A DNA stretch of 38,016 bases from a virus: IMG/VR virus record IMGVR_UViG_3300049846_001206, positions 1-38,016 of that record, one strand, 5' to 3'. Shown one piece after another: positions 3,883 through 37,087 of this stretch (within the stretch, counting starts at the first letter, position 1; each line of letters opens with the position of its first letter). The notes under the pieces were generated by a model. It was not told the origin of the DNA and did not search any database. It worked only from the letters and a program-made list of their open reading frames with translations. The translations under genes and the position numbers were made by a program.

Positions 3883-3888
3883 GATATA

Positions 3889-3955
3889 ACTATAGCGCCT
3901 TTCGGCCGTTTCGTAAAGGGGGTAAGCCGCCCTGCAAGGTACGGTTAACCGCCCC
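3889..3955 (-). promoter_or_regulatory. Intergenic module copy 2
   Basis: Minus strand: GGGCGGTTAACCGTACC, GGGCGGCTTACCCCC, -35 TTTACG, 17 bases, -10 TATAGT at 3894-3889. It drives the kinase gene (ATG 3882, gap 6 bases). The GGTTAA of the first half-site supplies the TAA stop of the preceding gene (3945-3947). Confidence 0.75.
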
Positions 3956-4677: not shown

Positions 4678-4683
4678 GCTTTA

Positions 4684-4750
4684 ACTATAGCGTGTTTTGG
4701 CCCAAAGCGAAAGGGCGCAAACCGCCCTCCGAGGTACGGTTAACCGCCCT
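4684..4750 (-). promoter_or_regulatory. Intergenic module copy 3
   Basis: Minus strand: GGGCGGTTAACCGTACC, then AGGGCGGTTTGCGCCCTTT, a clean hairpin (AGGGC/GCCCT) with a short T-run. The -35 is TTTCGC and the -10 TATAGT at 4689-4684, 6 bases before ATG 4677. The half-site TTAA is the stop codon of the upstream gene (4740-4742). Confidence 0.75.
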
Positions 4751-13181: not shown

Positions 13182-13187
13182 GAGTTA

Positions 13188-13252
13188 ACTATAGCTGGTT
13201 TTGGCTGTTTTGCAAAGGGGGGCAACCGCCCTAAAAGGTAGTGGAAACCGCC
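13188..13252 (-). promoter_or_regulatory. Intergenic module copy 7
   Basis: Minus strand: GGGCGGTTTCCACTACC, AGGGCGGTTGCCCCCC, -35 TTTGCA, 17 bases, -10 TATAGT at 13193-13188, 6 bases before ATG 13181. It abuts the TAG stop at 13253. Confidence 0.75.
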
Positions 13253-15398: not shown

Positions 15399-15470
15399 TG
15401 CTCCCAGACGGATTCGAACCGCCGACGTCCCACTTGTAAGGAGGGCACTCTACCGCTGAGTTATAGGAGC
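15399..15470 (-). tRNA. tRNA-Val (UAC)
   Basis: Acceptor GCTCCTA/TGGGAGC, D arm ACTCAGCGGTAGAGT, anticodon loop CTTACAA (UAC) and T arm GGCGG-TTCGAAT-CCGTC. The anticodon stem CCCTC/GTGGG has one U-U mismatch. Confidence 0.82.
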
Positions 15471-15545: not shown

Positions 15546-15643
15546 CCCGATGGGTGGAATCGAACCACCAGCTTTATTACGGTCTCAAAGAGACAACGGG
15601 GAGCGCCACTCCTCCTAGGGAAACTACCAGTGCCTTCATCGGG
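15546..15643 (-). ncRNA. tRNA-like RNA with perfect acceptor and T arm but no normal anticodon arm
   Basis: Ends CCCGATG and CATCGGG give a perfect 7-bp acceptor stem. The T arm GGTGG-TTCGATT-CCACC sits exactly next to it as in a tRNA, and a CTGGTAG phrase resembles a D loop. The 60-odd bases between do not form a standard anticodon arm. Instead they hold GGAG/CTCC and GTCTC/GAGAC hairpins. T4 makes stable RNAs C and D from its tRNA cluster, which may be an analogy. It could also be a decayed or intron-bearing tRNA. Confidence 0.5.
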
Positions 15644-15647
15644 GTTA

Positions 15648-15718
15648 CCACCGTGCCGGAATCGAACCGACTTTCCAACTGCATTGTCTGCGTGTCCTTA
15701 CCAATAGACTACCGGCGG
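15648..15718 (-). pseudogene. Degenerate tRNA-like sequence
   Basis: 71 bases with tRNA spacing: acceptor CCGCCGG/ACGGTGG (one mismatch, one G-U), D arm GTCT/GGAC and T arm GTCGG-TTCGATT-CCGGC. The anticodon stem (CGCAG against AGTTG) does not pair and the loop lacks U33, so no anticodon can be assigned. Probably a decaying tRNA or an RNA with another role. Confidence 0.5.
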
Positions 15719-15773
15719 AAAAGAGCCGCTTACGGCGGCCAGTCGTCACACGGAAGGGGTTTTAGCGATTAGC

Positions 15774-17240
15774 TCAGAAAGTGAACTTCGTTTGAATCAC
15801 ACCGCCCCACTTGGAAGCATTGTCAGTCAGACGCTGGTTGTCACTTGCGTAGAAAATCGCAGGAGTGATGCTAATGTTATCAGACACTTGGTACTTGTAG
15901 AAGATTTCAAGCATCGTTGCATCTTCCAGGTCTTCGCCTGTAGGTGCTTGACCCACAGCAATACCAGCAGAGTTACCCTTGGCGAACACATCAGCCCACT
16001 GAAGACCCGCGAACCAGGATTGACTGTCGGTAGCAGCACTCTCAGTACCACTTACAGTATTCCAGCCGTAAGATGCAGAGACCGAAGGAATCCAGCCAGA
16101 CTGCTTAGGTTGCCAGTAAGCGTTCACTGCGTAACCGTTCGAGGTTTGACCAGGAACCAAAGTGCCAGAAGCGCCGTTCAGGCCGTTGTAAGTACGAACG
16201 CGAGTTCCCTCGGTACCATAACGGTAGCCAAAAGCAACACCGTAATTAACACCTCGGTAACCAATCTGAGCCAGAGTGTTCAGGGCACCCGTCTCATCAA
16301 ACACTCCGGTATCACTGTTGTCACCGTTTTGGGCAACGTAGTTGACACCAGCCACGAAACCTTTCTTACCTTGGCTCCACTGAGCGCCGAAACCAGCACC
16401 GGTTGCCTTGTTATAGACACCCGGAGCACCAGCAACTTGGAAGAAATCAAGGATGTCCGACTTGTAAGCGGAGGGAATCCAAGCCATTTCGGTGTTACGA
16501 ACCTTAGCACCAGCAGTCAGAGTTGCCTTGTTGTTCAGGGCAGGGAACTGGTAATACAGACGGTCAATAACAACGGCGTCACCGATATCGGTCTGAGTGT
16601 TATCAGCCTTGTCAAGCTTAAACAGCGAGGACGAAGTTCCGAACGGGTCAGCACTGAAGTTTGAGGAACGCAGACGGGTGCGGAGCAAATCCTTACCAGT
16701 AAACGAAGTATCAAAGTTCAGGCGAACATCGTAGTTGAAAGCAGTATTGCCATTCTGAGTGCCTGCCTTGGTATCATAACCAGGAACACCACCCAAAACA
16801 AACGTTGCTTCACCACGCAGTTTAGTGGTAGTAGAGAACTGAGTTGCTTCCAGTTGACCTACCTTGGACTCCAGACTGTCAACACGACCGTTAAGAACAG
16901 CCAGCTCCTGAGCGAATTCGCTCTGCAGGCGCTTCAGCTCGTCAGTCACTTCGGTAACCCGGTCCAGGCAAGCATTCAGCAGAGCTGCTGCTTCGTAACG
17001 GGTCATCGATTTGCCACCGCCATAGGTTCCGTTCGGGTAACCTGCAACACAACCGTAACGGTCTACCAGGCTGGTGAGGGCTTGGTAAGCCCAATCAGTT
17101 GGTTTCACGTCGGAGAGTTGAGTGACGCTAGTAACTTGTTCTTGGGAGTATTGATTAACTGCGGCGATATTAAGATCAGCAGCAGACGCAACCAGCGGAG
17201 TCATAACGACAGCGCCAGCCACAAAGATGGTTTTTAGCAT
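15774..17240 (-). CDS. Cyanobacterial-type outer-membrane porin (SLH + OprB-like, 488 aa)
   Basis: A complete host-type porin of the SomA/SomB/OprB group. In order: a signal peptide (MLKTIFVAGAVVMTPLVASA, cut about residue 20); one SLH domain (about 41-95: LSDVKPTDWAYQALTSLVDR, GYPNGTYGG, MTRYEAAALLNACLDRV), which binds the cell wall; a coiled-coil linker (96-132); and a long beta-barrel region with alternating residues from about 138 to the end. It finishes in phenylalanine (VIQTKFTF), the outer-membrane insertion signal. Length and layout are full-size, so it should be functional. In a phage it could change the permeability or surface of the infected cell. Origin by transfer from a host is likely. 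It lies between tRNA genes. Confidence 0.88.
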   Translation of the reverse strand: MLKTIFVAGAVVMTPLVASAADLNIAAVNQYSQEQVTSVTQLSDVKPTDWAYQALTSLVDRYGCVAGYPNGTYGGGKSMTRYEAAALLNACLDRVTEVTDELKRLQSEFAQELAVLNGRVDSLESKVGQLEATQFSTTTKLRGEATFVLGGVPGYDTKAGTQNGNTAFNYDVRLNFDTSFTGKDLLRTRLRSSNFSADPFGTSSSLFKLDKADNTQTDIGDAVVIDRLYYQFPALNNKATLTAGAKVRNTEMAWIPSAYKSDILDFFQVAGAPGVYNKATGAGFGAQWSQGKKGFVAGVNYVAQNGDNSDTGVFDETGALNTLAQIGYRGVNYGVAFGYRYGTEGTRVRTYNGLNGASGTLVPGQTSNGYAVNAYWQPKQSGWIPSVSASYGWNTVSGTESAATDSQSWFAGLQWADVFAKGNSAGIAVGQAPTGEDLEDATMLEIFYKYQVSDNISITPAIFYASDNQRLTDNASKWGGVIQTKFTF

Positions 17241-17265
17241 GCTCTAATTTAGAGTTTCTGTACAG

Positions 17266-17286
17266 CGCCCGTTAGAGTATCGGGCG
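17266..17286 (-). repeat. Hairpin between tRNA-Gly and porin
   Basis: CGCCCG and CGGGCG pair around ATACTCTAA. A second palindrome, CTCTAAATTAGAG, sits at 17242-17254 directly before the porin ATG (17240), where a ribosome-binding site would be expected; no clear GGAG is seen. These could control porin translation or mark tRNA processing. Confidence 0.45.
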
Positions 17287-17287
17287 A

Positions 17288-17361
17288 AGCGGGCTAGGGG
17301 TGACGATCCCCTTACCTCCTGCTTGGAAGGCAGGCGCTCTACCAACGTGAGCTAAGCCCGC
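17288..17361 (-). tRNA. tRNA-Gly (UCC)
   Basis: Acceptor GCGGGCT/AGCCCGC, D arm AGCTCACGTTGGTAGAGC, anticodon arm CCTGC-CTTCCAA-GCAGG (UCC) and T arm with GATCGTC loop. Its first 10 bases overlap the end of the HNH gene. Confidence 0.88.
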
Positions 17362-17729
17362 AAACGTGTTGACTTCCCTTTGTTTAAGGCCCGGAAGTTG
17401 GGTGTTAATGAGTGACAGTTTGGGCACAGCAGCTCCAGATTCAAGGGACTGTTGTTTGTGGCATCCCCATCGATGTGATTGATCTCTAGAGGAACGTTCC
17501 CAGTAACCGGGTGGACCTCACCCCATCCGCACCGTGGGCAGCAACTATTTGCCTGTTCAAGTAAGTACCTTCTGACATGACTTGATTGCTTAACCGACGA
17601 ACCGAGAGTTATCTCACCGGATAACCACTTACGGATTGCTTCCGTATACTGGTACTCAACCTGACAACGGTTGCTGCAGTACTTATTGTTTTTTCGGCGG
17701 CAGGTTGCCCCGCAGGTTAAGCAAGTCAT
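17352..17729 (-). CDS. HNH endonuclease, homing-type (125 aa)
   Basis: Start chosen at ATG 17729 (MTCLTCGATCRRKNNKYCSN). The N-terminus holds a small zinc finger (CLTC ... CSNRC). The C-terminal half is an HNH nuclease: CPRCGW, then LEINHIDGDATNNSPLNLEL with the catalytic-type His-Ile-Asp, then LCPNCHSLTPNF. Free-standing enzymes like this cut DNA next to their own site and spread into phages lacking them. It is wedged between tRNA-Thr and tRNA-Gly, with the stop codon inside the tRNA-Gly 5' end. Confidence 0.85.
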   Translation of the reverse strand: MTCLTCGATCRRKNNKYCSNRCQVEYQYTEAIRKWLSGEITLGSSVKQSSHVRRYLLEQANSCCPRCGWGEVHPVTGNVPLEINHIDGDATNNSPLNLELLCPNCHSLTPNFRALNKGKSTRLRA

Positions 17730-17738
17730 ATTTGAAGG

Positions 17739-17810
17739 AGCCCCCGACATGATTTGAACATGCGACATCCTCATTACAAGTGAGGCGCTCTACCTCTGAG
17801 CTACAAGGGC
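17739..17810 (-). tRNA. tRNA-Thr (UGU)
   Basis: Acceptor GCCCTTG/CGGGGGC (two G-U pairs), D arm AGCTCAGAGGTAGAGC, anticodon arm CCTCA-CTTGTAA-TGAGG (UGU) and T loop TTCAAAT. Confidence 0.9.
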
Positions 17811-17868: not shown

Positions 17869-18237
17869 TTACACCCGGGAGTAACACACGTTGATGTGGC
17901 CACGACCTGGACTTGCCAGGGCACTGAATGCGGCGTAGGAGAGATCAAGGTCTCGGCCAGCCACAAATGGGCCACGATCGTTGATTCGCACGACGACCGA
18001 ACGGCCCTCGTGAGTCACTCGGAGGCGGGTTCCAAATGGCAGGTAACGGTGTGCCGCAGTCATGGCATAGGTGTTGAATCTTTCACCGCTAGCTGTGGTT
18101 TGACCGTGGTATCCATCACCAACTCCGTAATAGCTGGCTCCGTTGCAGGAAGCAGCAAGAGAAGGTGTAGGAGCAAGAATTGACATCCCTGCAACAACGG
18201 CCACACCAAGGAGACCCTTTAGTTTCGTAACAAGCAT
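17869..18237 (-). CDS. RlpA-like double-psi beta-barrel protein, secreted (122 aa)
   Basis: Start at ATG 18237, giving a signal peptide ([20 protein letters not shown], cut near SLA at 28). The mature part is an RlpA/DPBB domain with the family motifs [36 protein letters not shown] (Asp87, the usual catalytic-type acid) and DLS. RlpA proteins are lytic transglycosylases or wall-associated proteins of bacteria, often with an SPOR domain, absent here. A role in host wall remodelling or lysis is plausible but unproven. Probably host-derived. Confidence 0.82.
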
Positions 18238-18320
18238 TAGATAAGGTAGAACTCGACATCCGCCTCGCAAAGTGTGAATCCGCGTTTCAGCGGCACTTGT
18301 GGGCGGCTCTAGGTATTTAA

Positions 18321-18364
18321 GAGATGACTTCATCTCCGAGTTGCCCCGTGCGGTTTCTTGCACG
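18321..18364. repeat. Two adjacent palindromes
   Basis: GAGATGA-CT-TCATCTC at 18321-18336 and CCGTGC-GGTTTCTT-GCACGG at 18345-18364, in the gap between the 57-aa gene and RlpA. No T-run follows, so they may be RNA-processing hairpins or the leader of RlpA. Confidence 0.45.
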
Positions 18365-18402
18365 GCTGGCCTCATAAACCAGTCGGTAAAAGCAACGGTT
18401 CA

Positions 18403-18576
18403 TTATAGGTTTTCCTTAGAATCGGTAAACCTATGCCGGAGTGGCTGCTCTTTGCACCATGCGGCAAATTCCTGCTTCATGGTTTCCCACGATTCTTCGC
18501 AGGGAGTTGCGCCAACTATTTCACATGCTTTTGGCACGTTGATTTTAGCAGCAAAGAGTAACTCTAAATGTTCCAT
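18403..18576 (-). CDS. Hypothetical protein (57 aa)
   Basis: ATG at 18576, TAA at 18403. Sequence MEHLELLFAAKINVPKACEI, then VGATPCEESWETMKQEFAAW and CKEQPLRHRFTDSKENL, reads as a compact helical protein with three cysteines. A terminator-like hairpin ends with its T-run directly against the ATG, so its expression may depend on read-through. Family not recognised. Confidence 0.6.
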   Translation of the reverse strand: MEHLELLFAAKINVPKACEIVGATPCEESWETMKQEFAAWCKEQPLRHRFTDSKENL

Positions 18577-18602
18577 AAAAGAAAAGGGAGGTTACCCTCC
18601 CC
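18577..18602 (-). terminator. Intrinsic terminator/attenuator before the 57-aa gene
   Basis: Minus strand GGGAGG-GTAA-CCTCCC followed by TTTTCTTTT, then the ATG at 18576. A strong hairpin with a good T-run. Confidence 0.65.
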
Positions 18603-18721
18603 AGATCGCTCAGAGTGCGTTGCTCAAACGGCAACAGCAGTCCTGCGGAAAGAAACAATGTTGTTCGCAGTTACGAACGCTATCCCCTGCCCGGTCGATA
18701 ACCAGTTTACCCCCGAGGAGT

Positions 18722-18745
18722 GGAGGTAAGGCGATTCGAACGCCT
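18722..18745 (-). pseudogene. 3' half of a tRNA (T arm plus acceptor strand)
   Basis: AGGCG-TTCGAAT-CGCCT followed directly by TACCTCC is a perfect T arm and acceptor 3' strand. No GGAGGTA partner or anticodon arm lies within 100 bases on the 5' side, which is taken by the end of the protease gene and its CAATCAG/CTGATTG hairpin. Probably a tRNA remnant. Confidence 0.5.
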
Positions 18746-18793
18746 GTGTCGGACAAGGTATCCCAGTTTTAAGTCATTTGGAAGGACTTTCAA

Positions 18794-19717
18794 TCAGCTA
18801 AACTGATTGGTATCTAGCCACTCTTTGTTAATGAGTGACCACCAGTCTGCAGTCATTCCTGCAGTGATGTATTGGTAGGGAATCCAGCCATATCCGCTGG
18901 AACCCCAGCTAGTTCCCCAGGAGTTACGAATCAGGATTGCACCAGTTGTTTCAATACCACCGCTTGCGGAATTTTGAATCTTCTTGGTGTCGTCGTAGCC
19001 AACTGCAACAACAGCGTGACCACCGACAACAGACTCGCTAGGACGTGGGTACACAATCGAGCCGCCATTCGAGTTGGATTGGGTGTAAGAACTAAACACC
19101 GTGAAACCAAACATCGAAGGAAGGTTATTGGAAAGGTTTGTTTTAACCTGATCCAGTAGCGAAGCCCCCGAAGTTCCCGGAGGGTCAAGTCGGTAGTAAG
19201 AAGTTGCCTGGAACGATTGAGCCATCGCATAAACGAATGCGGAGGGCTCGTTATCGAACCGAGAAATGACATGAGGATAGTAACTCTCGGGCGGCGCACC
19301 AAACATGGTTAGTGCTTGCATCGTTGTTCGCATGTACGCCCCAGTGTCACCTGTAACGCGCATTAAATTCCTCGTTGTTTTATAAATGAAGAGACGAGAA
19401 GCTTCAATATGCTTTCCGTACGCTCGACGTTCGAAATATTCGAGCAATCCTGCAGCTGCTTGCGCCGTGCAAGAACCAAGAGCTCCCTGATTCTCAATCG
19501 GCGAGCACCACTGACGAAGGTCAACTGACGCAGGGAGACGATTAGTTGGAACAGACCCGCGAGGGAGAGCACCAGCGCGAACCAACATTTGATTCACAGC
19601 AGGTTGATTATACTTAGCCAGACGGGGAGTTGCGTTCAGACTGTCGATCGTGAAATCACGAGCGTCTGGGTAATCCCGCATCCAGCCAAATTTAGGCAGG
19701 AGTTCAGTTTCATCCAT
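18794..19717 (-). CDS. Papain-like (C1A) cysteine protease (307 aa)
   Basis: Start at ATG 19717 (MDETELLPKFGWMRDYPDAR). There is no signal peptide. The short pro-region-like N-terminus reads 'FGWxxDYPDARDFT'. The catalytic domain carries the oxyanion Gln77 and nucleophile Cys83 (ENQGALGSCTAQA), His234 (VVGGHAVVAVGYDD) and Asn265 (ILIRNSWGTSWGSSGYGWIP). The whole triad is intact, so it should be active. Similar C1 peptidases occur in cyanobacteria and some phages. Here it could trim virion proteins or attack host proteins. It lies between tRNA genes with no module of its own. Its stop codon is within a 7-bp hairpin. Confidence 0.85.
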   Translation of the reverse strand: MDETELLPKFGWMRDYPDARDFTIDSLNATPRLAKYNQPAVNQMLVRAGALPRGSVPTNRLPASVDLRQWCSPIENQGALGSCTAQAAAGLLEYFERRAYGKHIEASRLFIYKTTRNLMRVTGDTGAYMRTTMQALTMFGAPPESYYPHVISRFDNEPSAFVYAMAQSFQATSYYRLDPPGTSGASLLDQVKTNLSNNLPSMFGFTVFSSYTQSNSNGGSIVYPRPSESVVGGHAVVAVGYDDTKKIQNSASGGIETTGAILIRNSWGTSWGSSGYGWIPYQYITAGMTADWWSLINKEWLDTNQFS

Positions 19718-21520: not shown

Positions 21521-21571
21521 GGTAAATTTCAGTTTTCAAGGTGCGAGGCGGACTGACCCAACCACCCCTTA

Positions 21572-21632
21572 ACTATAGCGCCTTTCAGAGCCGGAGTAAA
21601 GGGCGGGAAACCGTCCGTGAAGGGCGGTAACC
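21572..21632 (-). promoter_or_regulatory. Intergenic module copy 10 (proximal tRNA-cluster promoter)
   Basis: Minus strand: CGGGTTACCGCCC, GGACGGTTTCCCGCCC, -35 TTTACT, 17 bases, -10 TATAGT at 21577-21572, about 51 bases before tRNA-Lys. It is followed by GGGGTGGTTGGGT, shared with copy 11. Confidence 0.7.
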
Positions 21633-21719
21633 CGGTGGCAGTGTCTGCGTGCCTCGAAGGAAACCGCAGACTGGTGACCCGGAGGCGAGAAGCCAACCGA
21701 AGCACCCAACCACCCTATA
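21633..21719 (-). ncRNA. Possible structured leader RNA between tandem promoters
   Basis: Downstream of module 11 and before module 10. It starts GGGTGGTTGGGTGCTTCGG and includes GTCTGCG and CGCAGAC, a 7-bp stem. No open reading frame of note. Because the same GGGTGGTTGGGT also follows module 10, the promoter and its start region look duplicated as one unit. RNA function is a guess. Confidence 0.35.
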
Positions 21720-21784
21720 ACTATAGCGCCTTTCGGGGTCCGGGTAAAGCGGGCAAACCGTCCATTCGGGGCGGTTAACCGTCC
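21720..21784 (-). promoter_or_regulatory. Intergenic module copy 11 (distal tRNA-cluster promoter)
   Basis: Minus strand: ACGGTTAACCGCCCC, GGACGGTTTGCCCGC, -35 TTTACC, 17 bases, -10 TATAGT at 21725-21720. Its GGTTAACC supplies the TAA stop of the 43-aa membrane gene (21775-21777). Confidence 0.7.
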
Positions 21785-37000: not shown

Positions 37001-37087
37001 GGTGCCTCCGAAATGTGTTTACATTTCGCGTTCCTTCAGCTAAAGCCTACTTCCGTCTCAACGAGATGAACGTAATAATTGATACCC

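Follow-up and report, generated by a model that had tools for sequence, protein, structure and literature searches.

The porin gene and its neighbours

The window (the whole 38,016-nt stretch analysed here, a 38-kb viral record listed in IMG/VR as IMGVR_UViG_3300049846_001206) contains T4-like structural genes, an RNA ligase gene and 19 tRNA genes, and the carrier of its porin gene is a freshwater T4-like phage of Synechococcus or Cyanobium. In the span from 15774 to 17254 there is a single intact open reading frame, which runs from an ATG to a TGA codon and encodes 488 amino acids (Table 1). As judged from profile matches, its product is a cyanobacterial porin of the SLH/OprB (SOM, por_somb) family. 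The NCBIfam model NF033921 (por_somb) spans residues 36-488 with an E-value of 1.7e-92 and a score of 310.6 bits (cut-off 100), and the Pfam models for the SLH domain (27.3 bits, cut-off 20.8) and for OprB (residues 101-488, 46 bits, cut-off 22.9) were also matched. The SLH region additionally matched the S-layer homology proteins 8bym and 8bz2 in a phmmer search of the PDB, and a search of PHROGs returned no family for the window porin.

Table 1. Positions of the porin gene, its parts and nearby features in the window
Feature	Position	Strand	Basis
Phage porin gene, SLH/OprB (SOM, por_somb) family	15774..17240	-	ORF, translation, NF033921, Pfam
Signal-peptide-like N-terminus, residues 1-21	17178..17240	-	sequence inspection, N-termini compared
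SLH domain, residues 43-85	16986..17114	-	Pfam PF00395
Long helix, coiled-coil linker, residues 100-133 (34 residues)	16842..16943	-	AlphaFold2 secondary structure
16-stranded beta-barrel, residues 138-488, Phe at end	15777..16829	-	AlphaFold2 model, Foldseek
Loop L5, residues 343-365	16146..16214	-	entropy; extracellular side taken from porin topology
Palindrome CTCTAAATTAGAG adjoining start codon	17242..17254		inverted-repeat search
GC-rich inverted repeat between tRNA-Gly and porin, without T run	17266..17286		sequence search
tRNA-Gly(UCC), directly upstream of porin	17288..17361	-	as in S-SRM01 and other relatives
tRNA-Thr(UGU), next tRNA upstream in window and S-SRM01	17737..17810	-	tRNA calls
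tRNA-Val(UAC), next tRNA downstream in window and S-SRM01	15399..15470	-	tRNA calls
tRNA-like remnants	15552-15735
HNH endonuclease gene	17352-17774	-
RlpA-like (DPBB) wall enzyme gene, close upstream of porin	17869-18375	-
GCTATAGTTA, five copies	3887-3896, 4682-4691, 13186-13195, 21570-21579, 21718-21727	-
Glutamine riboswitch aptamer	37025-37074	-	RF01739, 57.9 bits

The original prediction had described a full-length porin with signal peptide, SLH domain, coiled coil, barrel and terminal Phe all intact. This description holds, and the gene can now be assigned to the minus strand. The N-terminus, MLKTIFVAGAVVMTPLVASA-A, resembles a signal peptide with an AxA-type site when judged by eye, and the C-terminus reads ...TKFTF, so that the last residue is Phe. 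An AlphaFold2 model, for which the input alignment consisted of 59 sequences from the window and the collected loci, has a helix at residues 100-133 and 16 strands between residues 138 and 487; most barrel residues have pLDDT values above 85, whereas values are low at residues 1-45 and 65-72. When this model was used in a Foldseek search, OprB (4gey) was the best match and OprP (2o4v) the fourth, and general porins such as OmpF reached similar scores. Insertion of the phage porin in the outer membrane, as had been predicted, is therefore plausible from these sequence features.

A scan of viral contigs identified 335 IMG/VR stretches that encode relatives of the porin, and 80 of these, with porins that are 76-89% identical, were fetched as loci. 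In the window, the order tRNA-Thr(UGU), tRNA-Gly(UCC), porin, tRNA-Val(UAC) is the same as in the genome of the isolated Synechococcus phage S-SRM01. Among the 78 loci with upstream sequence, the phage porin was found in two mutually exclusive settings. In 43 of them the gene immediately before it codes for an LPS-type glycosyltransferase of family 25, and the porin usually closes a series of glycosyltransferase and nucleotide-sugar genes, which we refer to as a glycan cluster. In another 29, including the window and S-SRM01, it follows tRNA-Gly(UCC) in a tRNA array.

Several other elements were observed in these surroundings. The HNH endonuclease gene of the window lies between tRNA-Thr and tRNA-Gly and overlaps both. 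Between tRNA-Val and the porin there are tRNA-like remnants with the T-arm motifs GGTGGAATCGAACCACC and GCCGGAATCGAACC, for which neither ARAGORN nor Rfam gave a call. A permuted tmRNA called by ARAGORN at 18340-18811 on the minus strand was unconfirmed by Rfam and is probably false. Further away, the glutamine riboswitch aptamer has a ferredoxin gene (37378-37088) on one side and a gene for a virion structural protein (36837-35140) on the other. Lastly, a 103-amino-acid protein with a signal-peptide-like start is encoded directly downstream of the phage porin in nine loci (cluster 42; for example L009:11488-11796), and it had no match in Pfam or NCBIfam.

Upstream DNA and candidate control signals

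A palindrome at the place where the ribosome-binding site would be expected had been taken as a hint of control. The palindrome is indeed present at that position; it consists of 6-nt arms around a 1-nt centre and stops 1 nt before the porin ATG. However, the proposed control function is unsupported, since the element occurs at near chance frequency and in no relative. Of 20-nt stretches drawn at random from the window, about 1% contain an inverted repeat of this size, 3 of the 49 minus-strand ORFs of the window have such a repeat just upstream, and an exact search among 208 loci returned a single hit, the window itself (L001). We therefore rejected it as a control element, and the palindrome is probably not a conserved control site.

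The upstream DNA of the 81 phage relatives is unrelated to that of the window, and many of these regions have no Shine-Dalgarno sequence. The 111-nt stretch that contains the GC-rich inverted repeat of Table 1 has a folding z-score of -2.0, and scans for sigma-70 promoters and terminators near the porin gave scores no higher than those of shuffled sequences. A scan for Pho boxes gave a best phage score of 12/16, in 7 distinct upstream regions, which is near the scores of shuffles; the host control genes were negative as well, and Pho-box prediction in phages has been called unreliable (PMC10976474).

The motif GTCSTWTAG was present in 34 of the 54 distinct stretches upstream of phage porins, and a T4-type late-promoter motif in 7 of the 54. 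Because of these motifs, the porin relatives seem to use phage-type signals, which are placed at differing positions. In the window itself, GCTATAGTTA occurs five times where 0.15 copies would be expected, and the first three copies stop 4-5 nt before the starts of ORFs. It is likely a phage promoter-type motif, to which the GTCSTWTAG found ahead of many phage porins may be related.

The 5' ends of the phage porin genes (L002, L005-L084) are modular, with at least three types of signal peptide and unrelated upstream DNA in front of collinear mature proteins, which suggests that promoter and signal peptide are exchanged together among these genes. The signal-peptide type of the window porin was absent from its 81 relatives when the N-termini were compared.

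Probable descent from a host phosphate locus

The comparison with host porins that had been proposed as a check placed the phage porins in a clade of their own, nested among host porins. All 82 phage porins fell into one clade (support 99) in a tree that had 175 rows. In a second tree, built under a mixture model and with closer host sequences, the 20 phage rows again grouped together (support 99), and the phage branch lay inside a fully supported (100) clade of 46 rows that also holds 26 host porins. The closest host porin found is at most about 64% identical to the phage porin, and 27 residues, many of them in loops L5 and L8, are fixed in the phages and rare in hosts. The term 'host-type', which had been used for this gene, needs to be revised, since the porin belongs to a lineage found only in phages.

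The median pairwise dN/dS of the phage porins was 0.18. For the window porin and its nearest relative, dN was 0.067 and dS 0.99, which gives a dN/dS of about 0.07, and the frames extracted for this comparison contained no stop codons. These ratios point clearly to purifying selection on the phage porins. The gene is, accordingly, host-derived, fixed in phage lineages and under purifying selection, the features by which phage auxiliary metabolic genes are defined.

As the porin belongs to a common outer-membrane family of hosts, one might suppose that host DNA was misjoined to the phage contig, or acquired by it recently. The chance of this is negligible in view of the phage-only clade, the hundreds of phage contigs that carry the gene and the dS of about 1 to the nearest phage relative, and because the same tRNA slot is occupied in the genome of the isolate S-SRM01. 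An assembly join, which would have undermined the original prediction, is refuted by this isolate and by the phage clade.

The nearest host porins often lie in a locus in which CHAD, porin and pstS genes share one strand. This arrangement was seen in L085/L165, L087, L191, L192, L194 and L195, and also in L207, which is outside the 46-row clade; in L181 and L198, whose flanks are short, only pstS was seen. The CHAD genes are presumably such, having been recognised from sequence and not by a family search. A pstS gene was adjacent in 9 of the 26 host rows of the phage-containing clade versus 3 of the 39 other host rows (Fisher p-value of 0.009, uncorrected for relatedness and with flanks of unequal length). 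In one of the nine, L193, pstS is located upstream of the porin rather than downstream.

A similar arrangement was found in the phages. In 29 loci the porin is followed by a pstS gene on the same strand, with a gap of 15-146 nt in 19 of the 29, the phage PstS being identified by TIGR00975 (E-value 2e-81). This occurs in both settings (16 of 35 loci of the glycosyltransferase type and 8 of 23 of the tRNA type), and pstS is present in about 43% of the loci with enough downstream sequence. It was recognised neither in the window, which is a fragment, nor anywhere in S-SRM01, and none was seen in the two large contig fragments L016 and L020. The absence from the window and S-SRM01 indicates that the porin is independent of the phage's own pstS. 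In a tree of PstS proteins, those of the freshwater phages lay apart from three marine cyanophage PstS, with low support for the freshwater group (38/84) and with an abnormally long S-SM1 row (L211) that is too divergent to place. This separation suggests that the freshwater phages captured pstS separately from the marine ones.

Read from trees and gene order, the phage porin descends from the porin of a host phosphate locus of the CHAD/porin/pstS type.

Candidate functions and known counterparts

Four basic residues, K208, K260 (in the constriction loop L3), R329 and R347, are kept in the phages and in the host group with pstS-linked porins, and are rare in other host porins. They are shared by descent, and they support, without proving, a choice for anions. 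In the PhoE porin of Escherichia coli, a lysine in L3 (Lys125) is one of the main determinants of anion preference. The net charge of the barrel differs little (-2, -4 and -8) and shows a weak trend only.

The pstS linkage, the nesting among host porins of pstS loci and the basic residues lead us to favour a functional outer-membrane porin, derived from a host phosphate-locus porin, that admits phosphate or anions at the step before PstS; we would put the chances of this being correct at about even. During infection, the porin would be expressed, exported by means of its signal peptide and folded as a 16-stranded barrel in the outer membrane, where the SLH domain and the helix would anchor it to the cell wall. 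It would then admit phosphate, or anions generally, into the periplasm, and PstS, which many relatives encode next door, would pass phosphate to the PstCAB transporter of the host. The added phosphate could support phage DNA synthesis in phosphate-poor water. The basic residues and the pstS linkage, together with the literature on porins under phosphate stress, make phosphate or anion entry the best single model. In Prochlorococcus MIT9312 under phosphate limitation, the porin PhoE rose more than 15-fold along with PstS (PMC3349580). PhoB controls the SLH/OprB porin gene slr1908 (PMC11126600), and the pstS of marine cyanophages is controlled by the host PhoBR system (PMC10976474). Of the effects that had been proposed for this gene, a rise in nutrient uptake is consequently the best supported, and the pstS linkage narrows it to phosphate or another anion, the transport being presumptive. 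Against the model, no pstS was recognised in the window or S-SRM01, only about 43% of the loci that could show it have pstS, and the family label of the porin points to iron uptake.

The strongest conservation within the phage porins was observed in loop L5, which includes R347. Its entropy was 0.23 in the phages, compared to 1.59 and 2.22 in two host groups; it is less variable in the phages than the strands (0.31), whereas in hosts it is among the most variable parts. Because it contains R347, L5 could shape the pore, or it could form a surface patch with another role. A surface role would fit a porin that remodels the cell surface and causes superinfection exclusion, its fixed loops replacing or masking receptor porins of the host alongside phage glycan enzymes. 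The 43 loci in which the porin adjoins a family-25 glycosyltransferase gene, mostly as the last gene of a glycan cluster, agree with such a role. The lambdoid phage PA-2 provides a precedent, as it carries the Lc porin and lowers the display of its own receptor porin. Nevertheless, the other main setting, that of the window and S-SRM01, is a tRNA array and not a glycan cluster, and surface remodelling gives no role to the descent from a phosphate locus or to the pstS linkage. We therefore regard it as unlikely.

An extended form of the phosphate model is possible, though we hold it only tentatively. Porin and PstS would here be a two-step phosphate module that was captured from the host locus and exchanged between the two slots, and the phage-fixed extracellular L5 (about GTEGTRVRTYNGLNGASGTLVPGQTSN), gained by the porin, would serve an additional function: it could be a built-in selectivity element, or it could be a patch on the surface by which rival phages are blocked.

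Uptake of iron or another metal, as reported for Slr1908 of Synechocystis, is rather less probable than a surface role. NCBIfam does name the whole por_somb family 'iron uptake porin', but this name covers all SLH/OprB porins. Mutants in slr1908 contained less iron (PMC8707739), and in 20 of 60 loci a gene for a Dps/ferritin-like protein is found no more than 2.5 kb downstream of the phage porin, with ferredoxin genes nearby in others. However, the host group nearest to the phage porins is characterised by pstS and CHAD and not by iron genes, and the additional conserved residues are basic, not acidic.

After L5, the SLH domain was the most conserved region of the phage porins (entropy of 0.25). 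This would also be expected if the SLH domain and helix served mainly to hold the outer membrane to the peptidoglycan, preventing the shedding of vesicles or early breakage while host protein synthesis stops. Disruption of slr1908 caused hypervesiculation (PMC8707739), the SLH proteins of the marine phages S-PM2 and S-CREM1 have no large barrel, and the RlpA-like gene is found just upstream of the porin not only in the window but also in L012, L040, L075 and L078. Yet the whole barrel is likewise under purifying selection (dN/dS of 0.17), every clade member examined has it, and channel residues would not need to be kept in a tether. We consider such a tethering role very doubtful.

If the phosphate model is true, lytic phages re-engineer the outer-membrane permeability of the infected cell, and hundreds of freshwater phages keep an outer-membrane channel of the phosphate pathway. 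As the phosphate-locus porin often lies beside pstS in related viruses, the early steps of phosphate uptake, outer-membrane entry and periplasmic binding, may both be supplied by such viruses. It was already known that marine cyanophages carry phosphate genes that act at periplasmic or regulatory steps (pstS, phoA, phoH) and that phages encode proteins with porin folds. In the open literature, which leaves most subscription journals outside, we found no discussion of a phage-lineage porin of phosphate-locus origin that is often paired with pstS, nor any of the S-SRM01 porin beyond its annotation.

Among the known systems, Pseudomonas OprB and OprP have the same barrel fold as the phage porin (Foldseek E-values of 1e-13 and 1e-11), but they are only 12-13% identical to it and have no SLH domain. 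The 'S-layer protein' of S-PM2 (Q5GQG9) and the 'iron uptake porin' of S-CREM1 share with it the SLH domain, part of the helix and the terminal Phe. They are, however, about 280-290 amino acids long, with a different and much shorter C-terminal part, and score below the por_somb cut-off. Both S-CREM1 and S-PM2 proteins (L003:4935-5813 and L004:4932-5771) end in KF, and their C-terminal part is perhaps a small outer-membrane barrel. Marine cyanophages such as P-SSM7 and S-SM1 resemble the freshwater phages in carrying phosphate genes (pstS/phoA), and a porin beside pstS was seen in none of the three annotated marine loci inspected. Prochlorococcus PhoE and Synechocystis Slr1908, which were left out of the porin trees, are cyanobacterial porins that are controlled by PhoB or induced by phosphate stress, Slr1908 having been reported as iron-selective.

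The phage counterpart in an isolate genome is the S-SRM01 porin (QPX48248.1), which is 73% identical over 98% of the window protein and occupies the same slot between tRNA-Gly(UCC) and tRNA-Val(UAC), but differs in its signal peptide and upstream DNA. It is annotated as 'porin' only, and the paper on its genome (PMC8557907) does not use the word in its main text. The host counterparts are the SLH/OprB porins of phosphate loci, as in Synechococcus GFB01 (L085/L165) and in the best host match (L181). They have the same domains, fold and basic residues as the phage porins, but are no more than about 64% identical to them, and the 27 phage-fixed residues are rare among hosts.
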